Source: Rhodanobacter sp. (GTDB lineage Bacteria; Pseudomonadota; Gammaproteobacteria; Xanthomonadales; Rhodanobacteraceae). Taken from it: DNA of 64,000 nucleotides. The stretch's first letter is position 1, and each line of letters opens with the position of its first letter. Positions 30,490 to 35,443 of the stretch are shown one piece after another. The notes beneath the pieces were generated by a model. It did no database searches. It was not told where the DNA came from and worked only from the letters and a program-made list of their open reading frames with translations. The DNA lies in NCBI GenBank assembly GCA_024711345.1, contig JANJTA010000036.1, forward strand, positions 62,001 to 126,000, given 5' to 3'. A program made the translations under genes and the position numbers.

Positions 30490-31770
30490 ATGCAGATACC
30501 CACATGCGACATCGACTGCGCTGGTACGGACCCGGAAGCGCTGAACCGGCGTTGCGGCTGCGCCGTGGTCGACATCAACCAATTGCGCCACACCCTGGAG
30601 GCGGCGCTTCCCGGGATGGATGCCATCGATCCGGTGCGGCATGCGCACCTGTTTTCACCCCATGCCCTGTTCGTGGACCGGGGTGCATTGGACGCCATGA
30701 GTTCCGTGGCGGCGGCGGTGTTCCGGGTCGCCAGGCATCCACGCTACGTAGAGCAGGTGTTGCGCCATGCCCCCGAGATCGCGCGACACGATCCGGGTTC
30801 CGCGGGCGGCGTGCTGGGGCTGGATTTTCATCTCACGGTCGAAGGGCCGCGGTTGATCGAGATCAACACCAATCCCGGTGGGCTGCTGCTCAACGCGTTC
30901 CTGCTCGATGCCGTGCATTCCTGTGCGCCGGCAACCTGGACGCCGTGGGCGACCAGTGTCGCGGCGCAGGAGGCGGGCGTTTCGGCGTGGCTGGAGGACA
31001 TGCGGCGCCAACTCGGCCGGATGCCCAGGCGCATGGCCATCGTCGACGTCACGCCGCGCGAGCAGTTTCTTTATCCGGAATTCGAGTTGTACCGGCAGGC
31101 ATTTCAGGCTCGGGGCATCGACACGGTGATCCGGGCGCCAGAAGAATTCATTCACGACCGCCATGGCCTGCGTGATGCCGACGGGCCGGTCGACGCCATC
31201 TACAACCGTCTTACCGATTTCGTCCTGCGCCAACCGGCCTGCCAGCCGCTGGCCGCGGCGTATCTGGCGGGCTCGATTGCCCTGACACCGCATCCCCGGG
31301 CACACGCGGTGTACGCCGACAAGCGCAACCTCGCGGTACTCGATGCCCCGCATCTGCTCGAGAGCTGCGGAATCGATGCCTCCACGACCCATCTGTTGGC
31401 AAAAGCCATTCCGTCGACGGTCGAACTGACCGCGGAAAACCGCGACGCGCTGTGGGCCGCGCGCGAGCACTATTTCTTCAAGCCCGCATCCGGCTACGGC
31501 AGTCGCGGCAGCTATCGTGGTGACAAGATGACCCGGCGCACCTGGGAAGCCATGGCCTCCGCGGCTTACGTGGCACAGGCGTTCGCACCGCCCAGCGTGC
31601 GCATCCCACATGCCGACATCACGCTCAAGGCCGACGTGCGCTGCTTCGCTTCAGAGGACGGCACGCTGCTGTTCGCAGCCCGCCTGTACCAGGGACAGAC
31701 CACGAACATGCGGACCACGCATGGCGGATTCGCCGCGGTGCTCACCTCGCATGAAGCTCGCGTGTCCTGA
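30490..31770 (+). CDS. Circularly permuted ATP-grasp protein
   Basis: A 426-residue protein with ATP-grasp motifs in swapped order: the metal/catalytic segment LIEINTNPGGLLLNAF (usually C-terminal) lies near residue 125, whereas the ATP-binding loop FFKPASGYGSRGSYRGDK (usually N-terminal) lies near residue 335, followed by YQGQTTNMRTTHGGFAAV at the end. This matches the circularly permuted ATP-grasp group, which makes amide or ester bonds from carboxylates. Cys-rich text CDIDCAG...RRCGCAVVD begins the protein. An earlier TTG start at 30454 is possible. Substrate unknown; the gene ends 93 bp before dif. Confidence 0.8.
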   Translation: MQIPTCDIDCAGTDPEALNRRCGCAVVDINQLRHTLEAALPGMDAIDPVRHAHLFSPHALFVDRGALDAMSSVAAAVFRVARHPRYVEQVLRHAPEIARHDPGSAGGVLGLDFHLTVEGPRLIEINTNPGGLLLNAFLLDAVHSCAPATWTPWATSVAAQEAGVSAWLEDMRRQLGRMPRRMAIVDVTPREQFLYPEFELYRQAFQARGIDTVIRAPEEFIHDRHGLRDADGPVDAIYNRLTDFVLRQPACQPLAAAYLAGSIALTPHPRAHAVYADKRNLAVLDAPHLLESCGIDASTTHLLAKAIPSTVELTAENRDALWAAREHYFFKPASGYGSRGSYRGDKMTRRTWEAMASAAYVAQAFAPPSVRIPHADITLKADVRCFASEDGTLLFAARLYQGQTTNMRTTHGGFAAVLTSHEARVS

Positions 31771-31862
31771 GCCGGCACCACGCATCAGCATTTGCAGAGC
31801 AGGGCAACAGCGCACCGCGCGCTGGCGGACCTTCCGGGAGCACTTGCGCGACTTGGTTGCGT

Positions 31863-31890
31863 ATTTTACATAATATACATTATGCGAAGT
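31863..31890 (-). other. dif: Chromosomal dif site / attL of the element
   Basis: On the plus strand: XerD-type arm ATTTTACATAA (31863-31873), centre TATACA (31874-31879), XerC-type arm TTATGCGAAGT (31880-31890). Read on the minus strand it has the XerC-centre-XerD order of gammaproteobacterial dif (GCGCATAA/TGTATA/TTATGT theme). Both arms look functional, so chromosome dimer resolution should still work here. It locates the replication terminus. Confidence 0.92.
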
Positions 31891-32662
31891 GTCGGAAGTG
31901 CCCGGTGAGGTGGCCACAGCTGCCGGAACCCGCCCTCTGGGCCGCCCTGTGGGTCGCCCTCGCCGTGGTGCTCGCCGTCCACGCCGGCGGGTCTGGCTCA
32001 TCAGCCCCGAGGGCTTCCGCGAGCTGCGCCATAGCTGCATGTTGAACCGGCGCGAGGCTGCCGCGTACCTGGGCGTCTGCGTGCGCACCGTGCGCCACTG
32101 GGACAGCGGCAGGAACCGGGTGCCGTGGTCGGTGGTGCGCCTCCTGCGCCTGCGCCGGATGGGCGACCTCGGCGCGCTGTGCGATGAGTGGGACGGCTGG
32201 ACGATCAACCGGCTGGGCCTGCACGCACCAGCGGGCCGCACCTACCGGGAGCGCGACATGCGCCAGTGGTGGCTGACCATCGAGCATGCCCACCTGTTCC
32301 GCGAGGCCTACGACCGCGAAACGCTCGGGGGTGTGGGGGCGCAGCCCCCGCGAGCGCGGGAGCGCGTGACGCTTCTACCCGGAGCCGGTGAGGCGGGCAA
32401 GCAAGCCGACGCCGCGCCCTCGCATCCGATCGAAGCCGTGTTCACGCCGACCGCTTTTGCTCGCCGGTGTCGATTTGCGCGTCAGCGCGGAGCGGCGCCG
32501 GCGGGCATGGCGGCCGGCCTGTCTCCGGCCTCCGTGCGGTTGGGGAACGCGGCGGCGGCGCGCAGCGCCGCGGGGCTTGTCAGCTCTTCTCAACAAGTGG
32601 AACGCTACCCCTTGCAAACCCGATTCCAGCGCCACTTTTGGGGGGTGCGCCGTGCTGGCTGA
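31889..32662 (+). CDS. XafT-like Xer recombination activator (DUF3653)
   Basis: A 257-residue protein whose middle (residues ~38-145) is a DUF3653 domain: VWLISPEGFRELRHS, the helix-turn-helix RREAAAYLGVCVRTVRHWDSG, then DEWDGWTINRLGLHAP and RQWWLTIEHAHLFREAYD. The Vibrio cholerae TLC-phi relative XafT (VC1465 family) activates XerCD recombination without FtsK. GTG 31889 overlaps the last bases of dif; in-frame GTGs at 31898 and 31910 are alternatives, while ATG 32039 would cut off conserved residues. The ~110-residue C-terminal extension is low-complexity and may be partly a cis-acting DNA region. It overlaps rep by 11 bp. Confidence 0.8.
   Translation: MSEVPGEVATAAGTRPLGRPVGRPRRGARRPRRRVWLISPEGFRELRHSCMLNRREAAAYLGVCVRTVRHWDSGRNRVPWSVVRLLRLRRMGDLGALCDEWDGWTINRLGLHAPAGRTYRERDMRQWWLTIEHAHLFREAYDRETLGGVGAQPPRARERVTLLPGAGEAGKQADAAPSHPIEAVFTPTAFARRCRFARQRGAAPAGMAAGLSPASVRLGNAAAARSAAGLVSSSQQVERYPLQTRFQRHFWGVRRAG
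32322..32356 (+). other. Nested hairpin, candidate replication origin
   Basis: Inner stem GGGGGC/GCCCCC (32335-32340 and 32344-32349, GCA loop) lies inside an outer stem CGCTCG/CGAGCG (32322-32327 and 32351-32356). Located upstream of rep within the xafT frame. Rolling-circle elements place their nick site at such hairpins, but a terminator role is also possible. The assignment is inference. Confidence 0.4.
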
Positions 32663-33470
32663 TCCCGTCGTCATCGACCCGCGCAAGGCCCGTTGCCAGC
32701 GGCTGCGCCGCACGATCACGGAAGCGGCCAAGCTGCACGAGCGCGAGGCCCGTTGGGCCTTGGAGCGGCTGGGGCGCTCGGCCTACCGCAAGACCTTCAT
32801 CACCCTCACCTACCGCCCCGGCGAGACTTGGGAGCCGCGCCACGTGTCCCGCTTCGTGCGCCTGATGCGCCAGTGGTTCAAGCGCCGCGAGTATCCGTGC
32901 CGCTTCGTGTGGGTGGGCGAGCTGCAGAAGCGCGGCGCGCTGCACTACCACGTGCTGGTGTGGGTGCCCCGCCGCCTGCGCCTGCCCCGGCCCGATGCCT
33001 GCGGCTGGTGGCCGCACGGCATGAGCAACATCGAGACCGCCCGGAACCCGGTCGGCTACATGGTCAAGTACGCGACCAAGACCCGCCCCGAGGACATCCG
33101 GCGCCTGCCTAAGGGCGTGCGCCTGCACGGCAACGGCGGGCACGACCCAGCGACCCGCGTGCATCTGCGCGAACGCCTGTGGCCGCAGTGGGTGGCGCAG
33201 GAATGGGATCGGCGCCGCATTGAGGCTCACGTTGAGGAGCTGGAACGCGGCGTCGAGACCGAGGACGAACACTACGCCCGGCGGGCCGACGAGGAGGCGC
33301 TGTGGTGTGTGTATGCGCGGCGCTACGAGAGGAAGGGCTTCCCTCGCCTGCTGCGCGTGTCGGGCGGCGTCGTGGACTTGGTCACCGGCGAACTCATCCC
33401 TACCCCGTGGCGCATCGACGTGTCTCGCGGCGTCGTCCGGGCCTACCTCAAGACGGAGACCCTGCAATGA
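32652..33470 (+). CDS. HUH-type rolling-circle replication initiator
   Basis: A 272-residue Rep. It has an N-terminal strand TFITLTYRPG (~55), the metal-binding HUH motif RGALHYHVLVWVP (His at ~97 and ~99) and the tyrosine motif NPVGYMVKYATK (~135) expected of endonucleases that nick the plus-strand origin and link to the DNA 5' end, as in filamentous phages. GTG 32652 is chosen: it follows GGGGG at 32641-32645 and removes a poorly conserved N-terminus. It overlaps xafT by 11 bp and the next gene by 4 bp (ATGA). No other replication function is present on the element. Confidence 0.85.
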   Translation: MLADPVVIDPRKARCQRLRRTITEAAKLHEREARWALERLGRSAYRKTFITLTYRPGETWEPRHVSRFVRLMRQWFKRREYPCRFVWVGELQKRGALHYHVLVWVPRRLRLPRPDACGWWPHGMSNIETARNPVGYMVKYATKTRPEDIRRLPKGVRLHGNGGHDPATRVHLRERLWPQWVAQEWDRRRIEAHVEELERGVETEDEHYARRADEEALWCVYARRYERKGFPRLLRVSGGVVDLVTGELIPTPWRIDVSRGVVRAYLKTETLQ

Positions 33471-33682
33471 GCCAGATCGTGAGCGTTGGCACCAGCAACA
33501 ACGACGACGTGCTGAAACCCTACGGCGTGACGGAGGCGGAGATCGCCATGTTCGCGCTCGACGCCATCCGCTACGCCCACGACAAGGCCGAAGGCAACCG
33601 GCCTCGGTTCCTGTTCGAGCTGGTCGGGGAGTTTGAGGTCGCGCTGCGCGAGGCGATGGACCTGCCGATGCCCGACGACTGA
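33467..33682 (+). CDS. Small unknown protein of the Xer element
   Basis: A 71-residue acidic protein (SNNDDVLKPYGVTEAEIAMFALDAIRY core) with no signal peptide. Its ATG overlaps the rep stop codon (ATGA) and a GGAG lies 10 bp upstream, so it is translated together with Rep. A terminator follows at 33697-33733. Similarly placed genes in inoviral elements can encode ssDNA-binding or control proteins, but I see no OB-fold signature, so no function is claimed. Confidence 0.75.
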   Translation: MSQIVSVGTSNNDDVLKPYGVTEAEIAMFALDAIRYAHDKAEGNRPRFLFELVGEFEVALREAMDLPMPDD

Positions 33683-33696
33683 CCCGCATAAAAGGC

Positions 33697-33733
33697 GAGG
33701 CCCCCGACTGCTGGTGAGCGATCCGGGGGCCTC
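33697..33733 (+). terminator. Terminator inside the Xer element
   Basis: Perfect 10-bp stem GAGGCCCCCG (33697-33706) with CGGGGGCCTC (33724-33733), 17-nt loop, followed by TT. It closes the xafT-rep-small gene unit and lies just before the last gene of the element. Confidence 0.75.
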
Positions 33734-33776
33734 TTGGTACAACGAACCGGGGCCGAAGCCCCAAAGGAATGTTCGC

Positions 33777-34205
33777 ATGAAAACCGACTACGCGGCGCAA
33801 TGCCGCTTCTTCCGGGCCGAAGATGCGGTCCGCATCGCCCTCCAGGCGTACTACGCCGCCGGTCGCCGGATCGAGCCGCCACCGGGCGAACCGTGGATGA
33901 TCGACGGCGAGCCCTACGCCACGGCCTCCGACTTCGCGGATGCCTTCAGCGGCGAACTGCAGGCCCGGCTCTCCCTGCTGGCCCTCGCGCGGCTCGGTGA
34001 CTTCAACGTGCTGCGCGATGGCTGGGATCTTTTCATGCTGGCCGCTGACGTCGAACCGGAGAAAATGGCGCCGATAATCGCAAGGCGCGAGACCGAAAGG
34101 CTCGAAATTGAGGCCGAGTTTTCAGGCCTGAATATGCACAGTTTGCCACCCGAAGATAATCCTGCACATAATCAGCCTCCGAGGGAGGTTGCGAGCCGTG
34201 GATAA
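33777..34205 (+). CDS. Unknown protein at the right end of the Xer element
   Basis: A 142-residue soluble protein (MKTDYAAQCRFFRAEDAVRI... with a middle helix rich in Ala/Leu and an acidic tail). It has an AAAGGA ribosome binding site 9 bp upstream of its ATG. It ends 3 bp before the right dif-like site. The last ~120 bp are clearly more AT-rich than the rest. I recognise no family; it may act in regulation, immunity or helper-phage parasitism. In the circular form this gene would lie directly upstream of xafT. Confidence 0.7.
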   Translation: MKTDYAAQCRFFRAEDAVRIALQAYYAAGRRIEPPPGEPWMIDGEPYATASDFADAFSGELQARLSLLALARLGDFNVLRDGWDLFMLAADVEPEKMAPIIARRETERLEIEAEFSGLNMHSLPPEDNPAHNQPPREVASRG

Positions 34206-34207
34206 AC

Positions 34208-34235
34208 CCGACGAGACCTATACATTATGCGAAAT
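34208..34235 (-). other. attR of the element, with degenerate XerD arm
   Basis: Centre TATACA (34219-34224) and XerC-type arm TTATGCGAAAT (34225-34235) match dif, but the other arm (34208-34218, CCGACGAGACC) has no resemblance to a XerD site. Known TLC-phi attP shows this same loss. The XerC arm differs from that of attL at one base (AAT versus AGT), as expected if chromosomal and element halves were exchanged. The original dif therefore had arms ATTTTACATAA and TTATGCGAAAT. Confidence 0.88.
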
Positions 34236-34456
34236 TACTAACATCCATACCGCTGGGATCGGGCTTCCGCTACCTCGTCCCCGCCCACTCGTCGGAACTG
34301 ACCCGACCTTGTTACTGTTTGAGCCATGAGCGCACTCGAGACCGCGTCGTCGCCGTTTGCGCTGCGGGAAAAACCATGACATGACCTCGTGGCCGGATCT
34401 GGCTGCGGGGCGTGCCGCTTATTGATTGCAGGGGCGCAACACAGGGGCAAGGGGAA

Positions 34457-35443
34457 ATGAAGATATTGCTTGGACGCAGGAAGTGGCTGCTGCTGGCTGT
34501 TGCCGTGGCCTTGCTTGGCGCGGCCGCCGGCATCTGGGTCTTGTTGCACCCGGCCAGCTTCGTGGTGCAACCGTGGCGGGCGCAGCAATCGGTCACTGGG
34601 GCGCGTTTCGTGTTCGGCCCCTATCCGGTGGATGCGGACATGTCCCGCCTGAAGACCGAGGGCGTCACTACCATCATCAGTCTGCTCAACCCGAGCCTGC
34701 CCTACGAGTCGGCGCTGCTGGATCAGGAAAAGACGCGAGCGGAGCGGCTCGGCATCCGCGTCCTCAATTTCCCGATGGGCAGCATCCTCGGTCAGCGCTT
34801 CGGTGCCGACTACGAGCGCAATTCCCGCGCCGCCGCCGAGGCGGCCATCGCCAGCGACGGCACCGTGTACATCCACTGCTATCTCGGCCTGCATCGCGCC
34901 CGCAGCGTGCGTGACTACCTCGAACAGCACGCCGGTCAGGTCGATACCCGCCAATTCGCCGGTTCGATCGAGCACACCCGCTCACCGCGCCAGCTCGCCA
35001 ACGAGCGCGCGCAGGGCTTGTTCGAACAGAACGATTACGAGGGCGCGTTGCGCGAGCTGGGCAGCGTGCAGCCCATGGACTACGCCGCGTACGTACTCAC
35101 CGGCTGGATCGAGCTGCGGCGCAACAACAACGTGCTGGCGCGCGACCAGTTCCGGCAGGCGACCGGCATGGCCGACGCCAAGGCCGATTCCTGGGACGGC
35201 CTGGGCTTTGCGCTGCTACGCCTGGACGATCTGGACGGCGCCGGCGCCGCGTTCGGGCAGGCATTGAAACTGGCGCCACAGGACAACGACGCCATGCAAG
35301 GCATGGCGCAGACGCTCTACCGGCAGAACAAGCCGGCGCAGGCACTCGTCCTGCTCGAACAGCTGCACGCCGCGACGCCGGATAACCCCGAGGTCAATCG
35401 ACTGCTGGAGCGCCTGACGCAGCCGGCCGACACCTCGCCGTAG
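34457..35443 (+). CDS. Membrane-anchored tyrosine phosphatase-like protein with TPR repeats
   Basis: A 328-residue protein: one N-terminal membrane helix (WLLLAVAVALLGAAAGIW, ~10-27), a dual-specificity/tyrosine phosphatase domain (~45-160) and C-terminal TPR repeats (~180-320; for example AQGLFEQNDYEGALREL and LGFALLRLDDLDGAG). The phosphatase signature is VYIHCYLGLHRARS, i.e. HCx5R, with the nucleophile Cys near residue 142. The domains would face the periplasm. GGGGA precedes ATG 34457. The fusion order is uncommon; substrate unknown. Confidence 0.8.
   Translation: MKILLGRRKWLLLAVAVALLGAAAGIWVLLHPASFVVQPWRAQQSVTGARFVFGPYPVDADMSRLKTEGVTTIISLLNPSLPYESALLDQEKTRAERLGIRVLNFPMGSILGQRFGADYERNSRAAAEAAIASDGTVYIHCYLGLHRARSVRDYLEQHAGQVDTRQFAGSIEHTRSPRQLANERAQGLFEQNDYEGALRELGSVQPMDYAAYVLTGWIELRRNNNVLARDQFRQATGMADAKADSWDGLGFALLRLDDLDGAGAAFGQALKLAPQDNDAMQGMAQTLYRQNKPAQALVLLEQLHAATPDNPEVNRLLERLTQPADTSP

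Follow-up and report, generated by a model that had tools for sequence, protein, structure and literature searches.

How can an element that has no recombinase gene enter the chromosome through the Xer system of its host and make that integration one-way? The question is raised by a small element of Rhodanobacter sp. (assembly GCA_024711345.1) that sits at dif within a stretch of 64,000 nucleotides of contig JANJTA010000036.1 (the window, to which positions refer unless a locus is named). A preliminary description of this stretch recognised a satellite of the TLC-phi type, bounded by two dif-related sites and carrying a DUF3653 gene, a HUH replication protein (Rep) and two genes without a family. 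The DUF3653 gene, xafT, specifies a protein of the XafT family; XafT activates the recombinase XerD. What the description missed is that the attachment site of the circular element (attP), as read from the sequence, is located inside xafT. It is probable that this is a TLC-phi-type Xer element whose entry into dif splits xafT and lowers the supply of XafT, so that the integrated copy is locked in.

The dif borders and the split of xafT

The core TATACATTATGCGAA is present in exactly two copies in the window (31874–31888 and 34219–34233), none being expected from shuffled sequences, and in the 3.8 Mb genome it is confined to these two places at up to one mismatch, which makes this the sole dif of the genome. 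Core searches of window and genome agree with the description of two borders that share the centre TATACA and the XerC arm, and the left border (attL) is indeed a full dif, with both arms and the centre present. The right site (attR) was said to have lost its XerD arm. No such arm is found there, but the second core lacks one in all ten core pairs compared, and in the same pairs the first core has one wherever the contig includes the sequence to its left; as the second core never has the arm, it is better said that attP has none. The outer arm of attR, GCGAAATTAC, is similar to dif sites of relatives (for example, loci L046 and L047), and the inner arm of attL, GCGAAGTG, is unlike it. The cumulative GC skew of the window peaks near 31 kb, a maximum of the kind expected at a replication terminus, and a profile search of the host genome returned one XerD above the cut-off and a second Xer-like gene.

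Behind attL, the frame of xafT is open from the core onward, and dif supplies a TAA directly before it. A matching start is found at the other end of the element, where a GTG codon lies 21 nt before the attR centre, behind the sequence AGGGAGG and in the same frame as the body. The arrangement recurs among complete small elements, defined as a XafT-like body flanked on both sides by the same centre and XerC arm: 12 of 15, the window element among them, have an ATG or GTG 9–33 nt upstream of the attR centre and in frame with the body (14 frame-tested elements, of which 12 fit, plus that of Fulvimonas entered as a misfit). Start-to-centre distances are 9, 15, 21, 21, 24, 24, 24, 24 and 33 nt for bodies in frame 0, and 23, 23 and 23 nt for those in frame 1. 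By chance one third would be in frame (binomial 2.9e-4, a guide only, since the elements are related). One fitting element is from a genome (G339) of a different family within the class, and two have damaged bodies, through a deletion in G146 and a frameshift in G109. Kept apart from the 15 were G153 (ends on two contigs); dif bodies with no second core in reach (including L057, L064, L072, L089, L091 and L092); G158 (L048), with a stop behind the core and its own ATG; G135, with tandem 1,848 bp units, an ATG of its own and no dif-like site seen; and the larger prophages of G046, G049, G110 and G155, which show no match to the XafT profile between their cores.

Where copies stand in tandem, as in G170, the gene is uninterrupted over the junction and forms a 273-codon open reading frame (ORF) across the core; the NCBI name of the 273 aa product is VC1465 family Xer recombination activation factor. 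The core translates, in two frames, to a peptide that was present in 19 of 120 listed XafT-like database proteins (194 found), and in 19 of these 19, among the matches listed, a methionine stands 7 or 8 residues before this peptide. Other listed proteins begin within the body, or have dif-like residues followed by a variant of the core (for example, P0227, P0250, P0252 and P0301), as expected from integrated copies.

A sigma-70-like sequence, TTGCCA-18-CATAAT, is the sole match of its kind on either strand of 31700–34500 (0.4 expected); it points towards xafT in the circle and, after integration, outwards into the chromosome. A looser pattern (TTGC-N18 to 20-NATAAT) precedes the attR centre by 73–76 nt in 8 of 14 paired elements. 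The attR of G153 has this pattern as well, and the scanned stretch of G100 has no match to it. Elements differ in the frame in which this block is read, and in some it sits behind the last ORF; coding constraint alone therefore does not account for its conservation. Integration thus parts the start codon, and with it the probable promoter, from the body of xafT.

We propose that, in the circle, xafT would be expressed across attP from a promoter and a start codon located immediately before this site. XafT would then activate host XerD on dif and on an attP that has no XerD arm, presumably in a XerD-first exchange that XerC would finish, and the element would enter dif. Entry would leave the promoter-like site, the ribosome-binding site and the first seven codons at attR, and the xafT body at attL behind the stop codon supplied by dif. 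The supply of XafT would fall after integration, and the copy would stay locked until an incoming or tandem copy provided an intact xafT. The circle itself would replicate via the HUH Rep. Such an arrangement may be described as a self-limiting switch. A bolder version, which we put forward only tentatively, is that the switch is one-way: the host dif would shut off the activator, with reversal only by a second copy or tandem, and elements without Rep (see below) would be its most reduced form. In this version attP would follow codon 7–8 of xafT, the stop would come from dif for bodies in frame 0, and the Rep-less 1.5 kb kind would consist of activator, attachment site and cis signals only, with a Rep-bearing relative or an inovirus replicating it in trans.

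Alternative readings and precedents

TLC-phi of V. cholerae is described as having an attP with XerC arm, centre and a degenerate XerD arm, its own replication module and no morphogenesis genes (PMC4246890), and activation of XerD by XafT is described in PMC9765430. The present element shares with TLC-phi the dif target, the form of attP, a replication module of its own, the lack of morphogenesis genes and the XafT (VC1465) family; assignment to this type is supported by the site form, the XafT-family gene, Rep and the absence of known virion genes. It differs in its size of 2.3 kb and in having no known helper. An attP inside xafT is a feature of the window element, and in this comparison is known from its side alone. 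The suggested rolling-circle replication, a prediction, is supported by the motifs HYH and YxxxY, which are invariant in the five Reps compared. Packaging by a helper would be by analogy with TLC-phi: coat and Zot/assembly genes, by which an inovirus would be recognised, were not found among the ORFs of the element, and with no match in a Zot search of the window's genome no resident helper was seen, although one may have been outside the genome. Zot was present in two (G056 and G153) of the eight small-element genomes searched (G000, G056, G099, G146, G151, G153, G170 and G202).

It is possible, if rather doubtful, that the element is instead a Xer-integrating rolling-circle plasmid, replicated by Rep, spread by transformation or mobilisation and never packaged. 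The presence of Rep, the lack of a packaging gene and the lack of a visible helper in six of the eight genomes agree with a plasmid, but Rep is related to those of Xanthomonas inoviruses (33–45% identity; nine of its 10 matches among 50,697 phage records are Xanthomonas phages), and the XafT family and site form are as in TLC-phi. A plasmid is compatible with the split-gene switch.

Other observations weigh against the switch itself. The frame test is less than independent, its elements being related, and it has three misfits: Fulvimonas, with the body in frame 2 and a degenerate attR; G357, with a stop upstream and an ATG of its own; and G382, where the frame is open and offers a TTG only. 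The larger prophages of G046 and G049 have, by eye, a DUF3653-like frame behind attL and no such start, and counting them lowers the tally to 12 of 17. By pattern, 6 of the 14 paired elements (G109, G137, G041, G339, G357 and G382) lack the promoter-like block. In the window, GTG codons lie 15, 24, 36 and 75 nt behind the attL core and could start a shorter protein with the whole domain; the model of the 273 aa protein is confident only for the helix-turn-helix (HTH) and DUF3653 part (about residues 21–131), and the N-terminus removed by entry is predicted to be poorly ordered. The best reading of the model is that integration would remove the promoter-like site and start, not the fold.

The same codons, a domain that is predicted to fold without its N-terminus, the separate ATG behind the core in G357 and the description of TLC-phi integration as reversible (PMC4246890) would suit an ordinary TLC-phi-like satellite, in which xafT starts behind the core and is made in both states, integration is freely reversible and the overlap is compact packing. 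We regard this as unlikely. No clear ribosome-binding site was seen by eye at any of the GTG codons, and three of nine elements have no possible start codon (ATG, GTG or TTG) in the stretch from the attL core to the domain; the frame match of 12 in 15 against one third by chance, and the fixed position of the start in the 19 database proteins among the matches listed, also argue against it. A dead remnant, that is, a decayed inovirus or satellite with few genes and no longer mobile, is very improbable, for although known virion genes and a Zot match in the genome are lacking, G191 keeps only a 57 bp stump (see below) and some relatives are decayed (G109 and G146), the element has four open genes and intact catalytic motifs, its gene set recurs in five other genomes (decayed in one), and orf4 has 85 relatives in the databases.

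For the preferred reading, a split of xafT by its own attachment site, there are partial precedents. XacF1 of Xanthomonas citri is described as having its attP at dif inside ORF12, which integration splits (PMC5666396). It shares with the window element an attP inside a gene of its own at dif, and differs in that it is a full phage, that ORF12 is a DUF3693 gene cut near its 3' end, and that ORF11, behind attP, has an ATG of its own 88 nt past the core. ORF11 is weakly XafT-like (20.7 bits for a cut-off of 22.4, and 21 bits for a cut-off of 70), and the present element offers a way to read how ORF12 and ORF11 are arranged. In the suicidal integrases of archaea (SSV1, pTN3 and pT26-2), the attachment site is described as lying inside a gene needed for integration, and release by an outside copy has been proposed; self-splitting integrase genes are described there as exclusive to archaea (PMC8371274). 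The attachment site lies within an integration gene in both cases. The split gene is that of the recombinase in archaea, whereas here it is bacterial, would encode an activator of host XerCD and is cut near its start; profile searches and the model of xafT found only HTH and DUF3653, and no tyrosine recombinase. The XacF1 precedent aside, no description of a self-split xafT was found in the mostly open-access literature searched (titles and abstract beginnings). New here, as far as sequence can tell, is a Xer satellite with its activator gene split near the start by its own attachment site. If true, the self-splitting integration genes of archaea have a counterpart in a bacterial gene for a recombination activator, and there is a simple, testable answer to the question of how an element with no recombinase could make Xer integration one-way, the activator being whole only in the circle or in tandem.

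Gene content of the element

The features of the element are listed in Table 1. Profile searches returned the gene set as described, and no coat or assembly family among its ORFs, in line with the reported absence of capsid, adsorption and assembly genes; the size of 2,345 bp was also reproduced. The xafT product matches Pfam DUF3653 with 33.5 bits (cut-off 22.4). Against NF040522 (VC1465 family) it scores 65 bits, below the cut-off of 70, and is the one of five proteins tested that does so; matches to NF040522 were found in 9 of 369 genomes of the class, including that of the window. In the PDB, the XafT fold matched HTH regulators and antitoxins, but no match reached E <= 0.001, and the orf4 model (predicted local distance difference test score 81) had no PDB match at that level. 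The XafT-like protein (31889–32659) also matches PHROG 1668, labelled tail assembly protein, a label that does not fit its XafT relatives.

Table 1. Features of the dif element and their positions in the window.
Feature	Position	Strand	Basis or remark
attL, complete dif	31863–31890	+	ATTTTACATAA-TATACA-TTATGCGAAGT; XerD arm 31863–31873, centre 31874–31879, XerC arm 31880–31890
Integrated element, 2,345 bp centre to centre	31874–34218	+	Core pair positions
xafT body	31874–32662	+	DUF3653; open in frame 0 from core; conserved domain from about 31985
rep, HUH endonuclease	32652–33470	+	REP_ORF2-G2P, E 4.3e-35; GTG start taken from relatives
orf3	33467–33682	+	No convincing family in profile searches; relatives found in Rep-bearing elements
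Hairpin 1 of intergenic cassette	33698–33732	+	Two-hairpin pattern, folding
Hairpin 2 of intergenic cassette	33749–33762	+	Two-hairpin pattern, folding
orf4, small helical protein in model	33777–34205	+	No convincing family in profile searches; 85 relatives
Promoter-like site TTGCCA-18-CATAAT, pointing over attP	34143–34172	+	Sigma-70-like pattern match
Possible ribosome-binding site AGGGAGG	34182–34188	+	Read from sequence
xafT 5' stub, GTG start and 6 further codons	34198–34218	+	In frame with body behind attL
attR, centre and XerC arm without XerD arm	34219–34235	+	Core and arm comparison

What had been called a terminator is a pair of hairpins, but no T run is present on the plus strand, and terminator-like matches in the region (three) compare with 1.7 (standard deviation 1.5) in shuffled sequences. 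Folding of this cassette beats that of shuffles in eight of eight elements (z −1.5 to −3.4).

Related elements at dif

The exact core was found in 66 of 233 genomes of the family, and same-strand core pairs mark integrated elements of 1.5–8.4 kb. Small dif elements of 1.5–2.5 kb can be defined as two kinds, with and without Rep (organism names given for the relatives' genomes are putative). The Rep-bearing kind (about 2.1–2.5 kb) has the gene order xafT, rep, orf3, orf4 and includes, besides the window element, those of G151 (Root480), G099 (Frateuria defendens), G085 (Dyella tabacisoli) and G100 (Fulvimonas soli), with a decayed copy in G109 (Luteibacter jiangsuensis), so that a search for the gene set at dif in other genomes was positive in five. 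The Rep-less kind (about 1.5–1.65 kb) carries xafT, a protein with a SEC-C motif and a small ORF, and was found in G056 (Dyella terrae), G146 (Pinirhizobacter soli), G170 (T12-5), G202 (DHG33) and G153 (R. lindaniclasticus). With related units of 1,466–1,651 bp, the window element is not unusually small, as had been thought. The elements of G137, G041, G339, G357 and G382 were compared on xafT and the att region.

Like the window element, Rep-less elements have xafT, the two-hairpin cassette and the promoter-like block, and xafT is split in all four that could be tested; unlike it, they carry the SEC-C-motif protein in place of Rep. The cassette is common to both kinds, and its pattern was unmatched in the larger dif prophages fetched. 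Among the five Rep-less genomes, REP_ORF2-G2P was present in G153 and weakly in G170 (G153 only with profile A4), and none was found in G056, G146 or G202. Contigs bearing orf4 measure 2.4–2.6 kb in 10 of 85 cases and 2.6–2.8 kb in two, and those of SEC-C proteins (120 listed) show no clear peak at unit size; unit-sized contigs are suggestive of circles at most. A piece of XafT gave no match among the 50,697 phage records, and a scan of IMG/VR with the XafT alignment gave 57 pattern matches, none of them confirmed.

A dif at the empty site was sought in sister strains. Among 44 further genomes of the genus, G191 alone has a match to the right-flank gene; its left flank is the same (93% protein identity) and ends in dif, so that this place has a dif in G191 too, but the right flank sits some 22 kb further along, so there is no clean empty site. 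After this dif (L068:5991–6071), 57 bp are nearly identical to the left end of the element, followed by unrelated DNA, and on sequence grounds the stretch appears to be the stump of a lost relative.

In other genomes of the genus, genes resembling xafT are found at the XerD side of dif and directed away from the site (L041:13377, L045:6049, L047:6341, and L049 5757–5386 on the minus strand), some of them with an ATG of their own. No mirror half site (XerD arm and centre without XerC arm) turned up in the scanned loci, so these genes are not explained by such sites. In G382 (L109:8800–10000; L100:1390–2320), the dif-proximal unit is only 930 bp, and its xafT-like frame has no stop over the full length and reads on past the second core into part of another copy. 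G357 (L110 and L103), from another family of the class, has tandem 1.6 kb dif units in which the xafT-like gene behind the core has its own ATG. Contig C1 of G110 (L074) carries an array of dif units of about 7.1 kb with Zot, the attR of which is likewise without a XerD arm.

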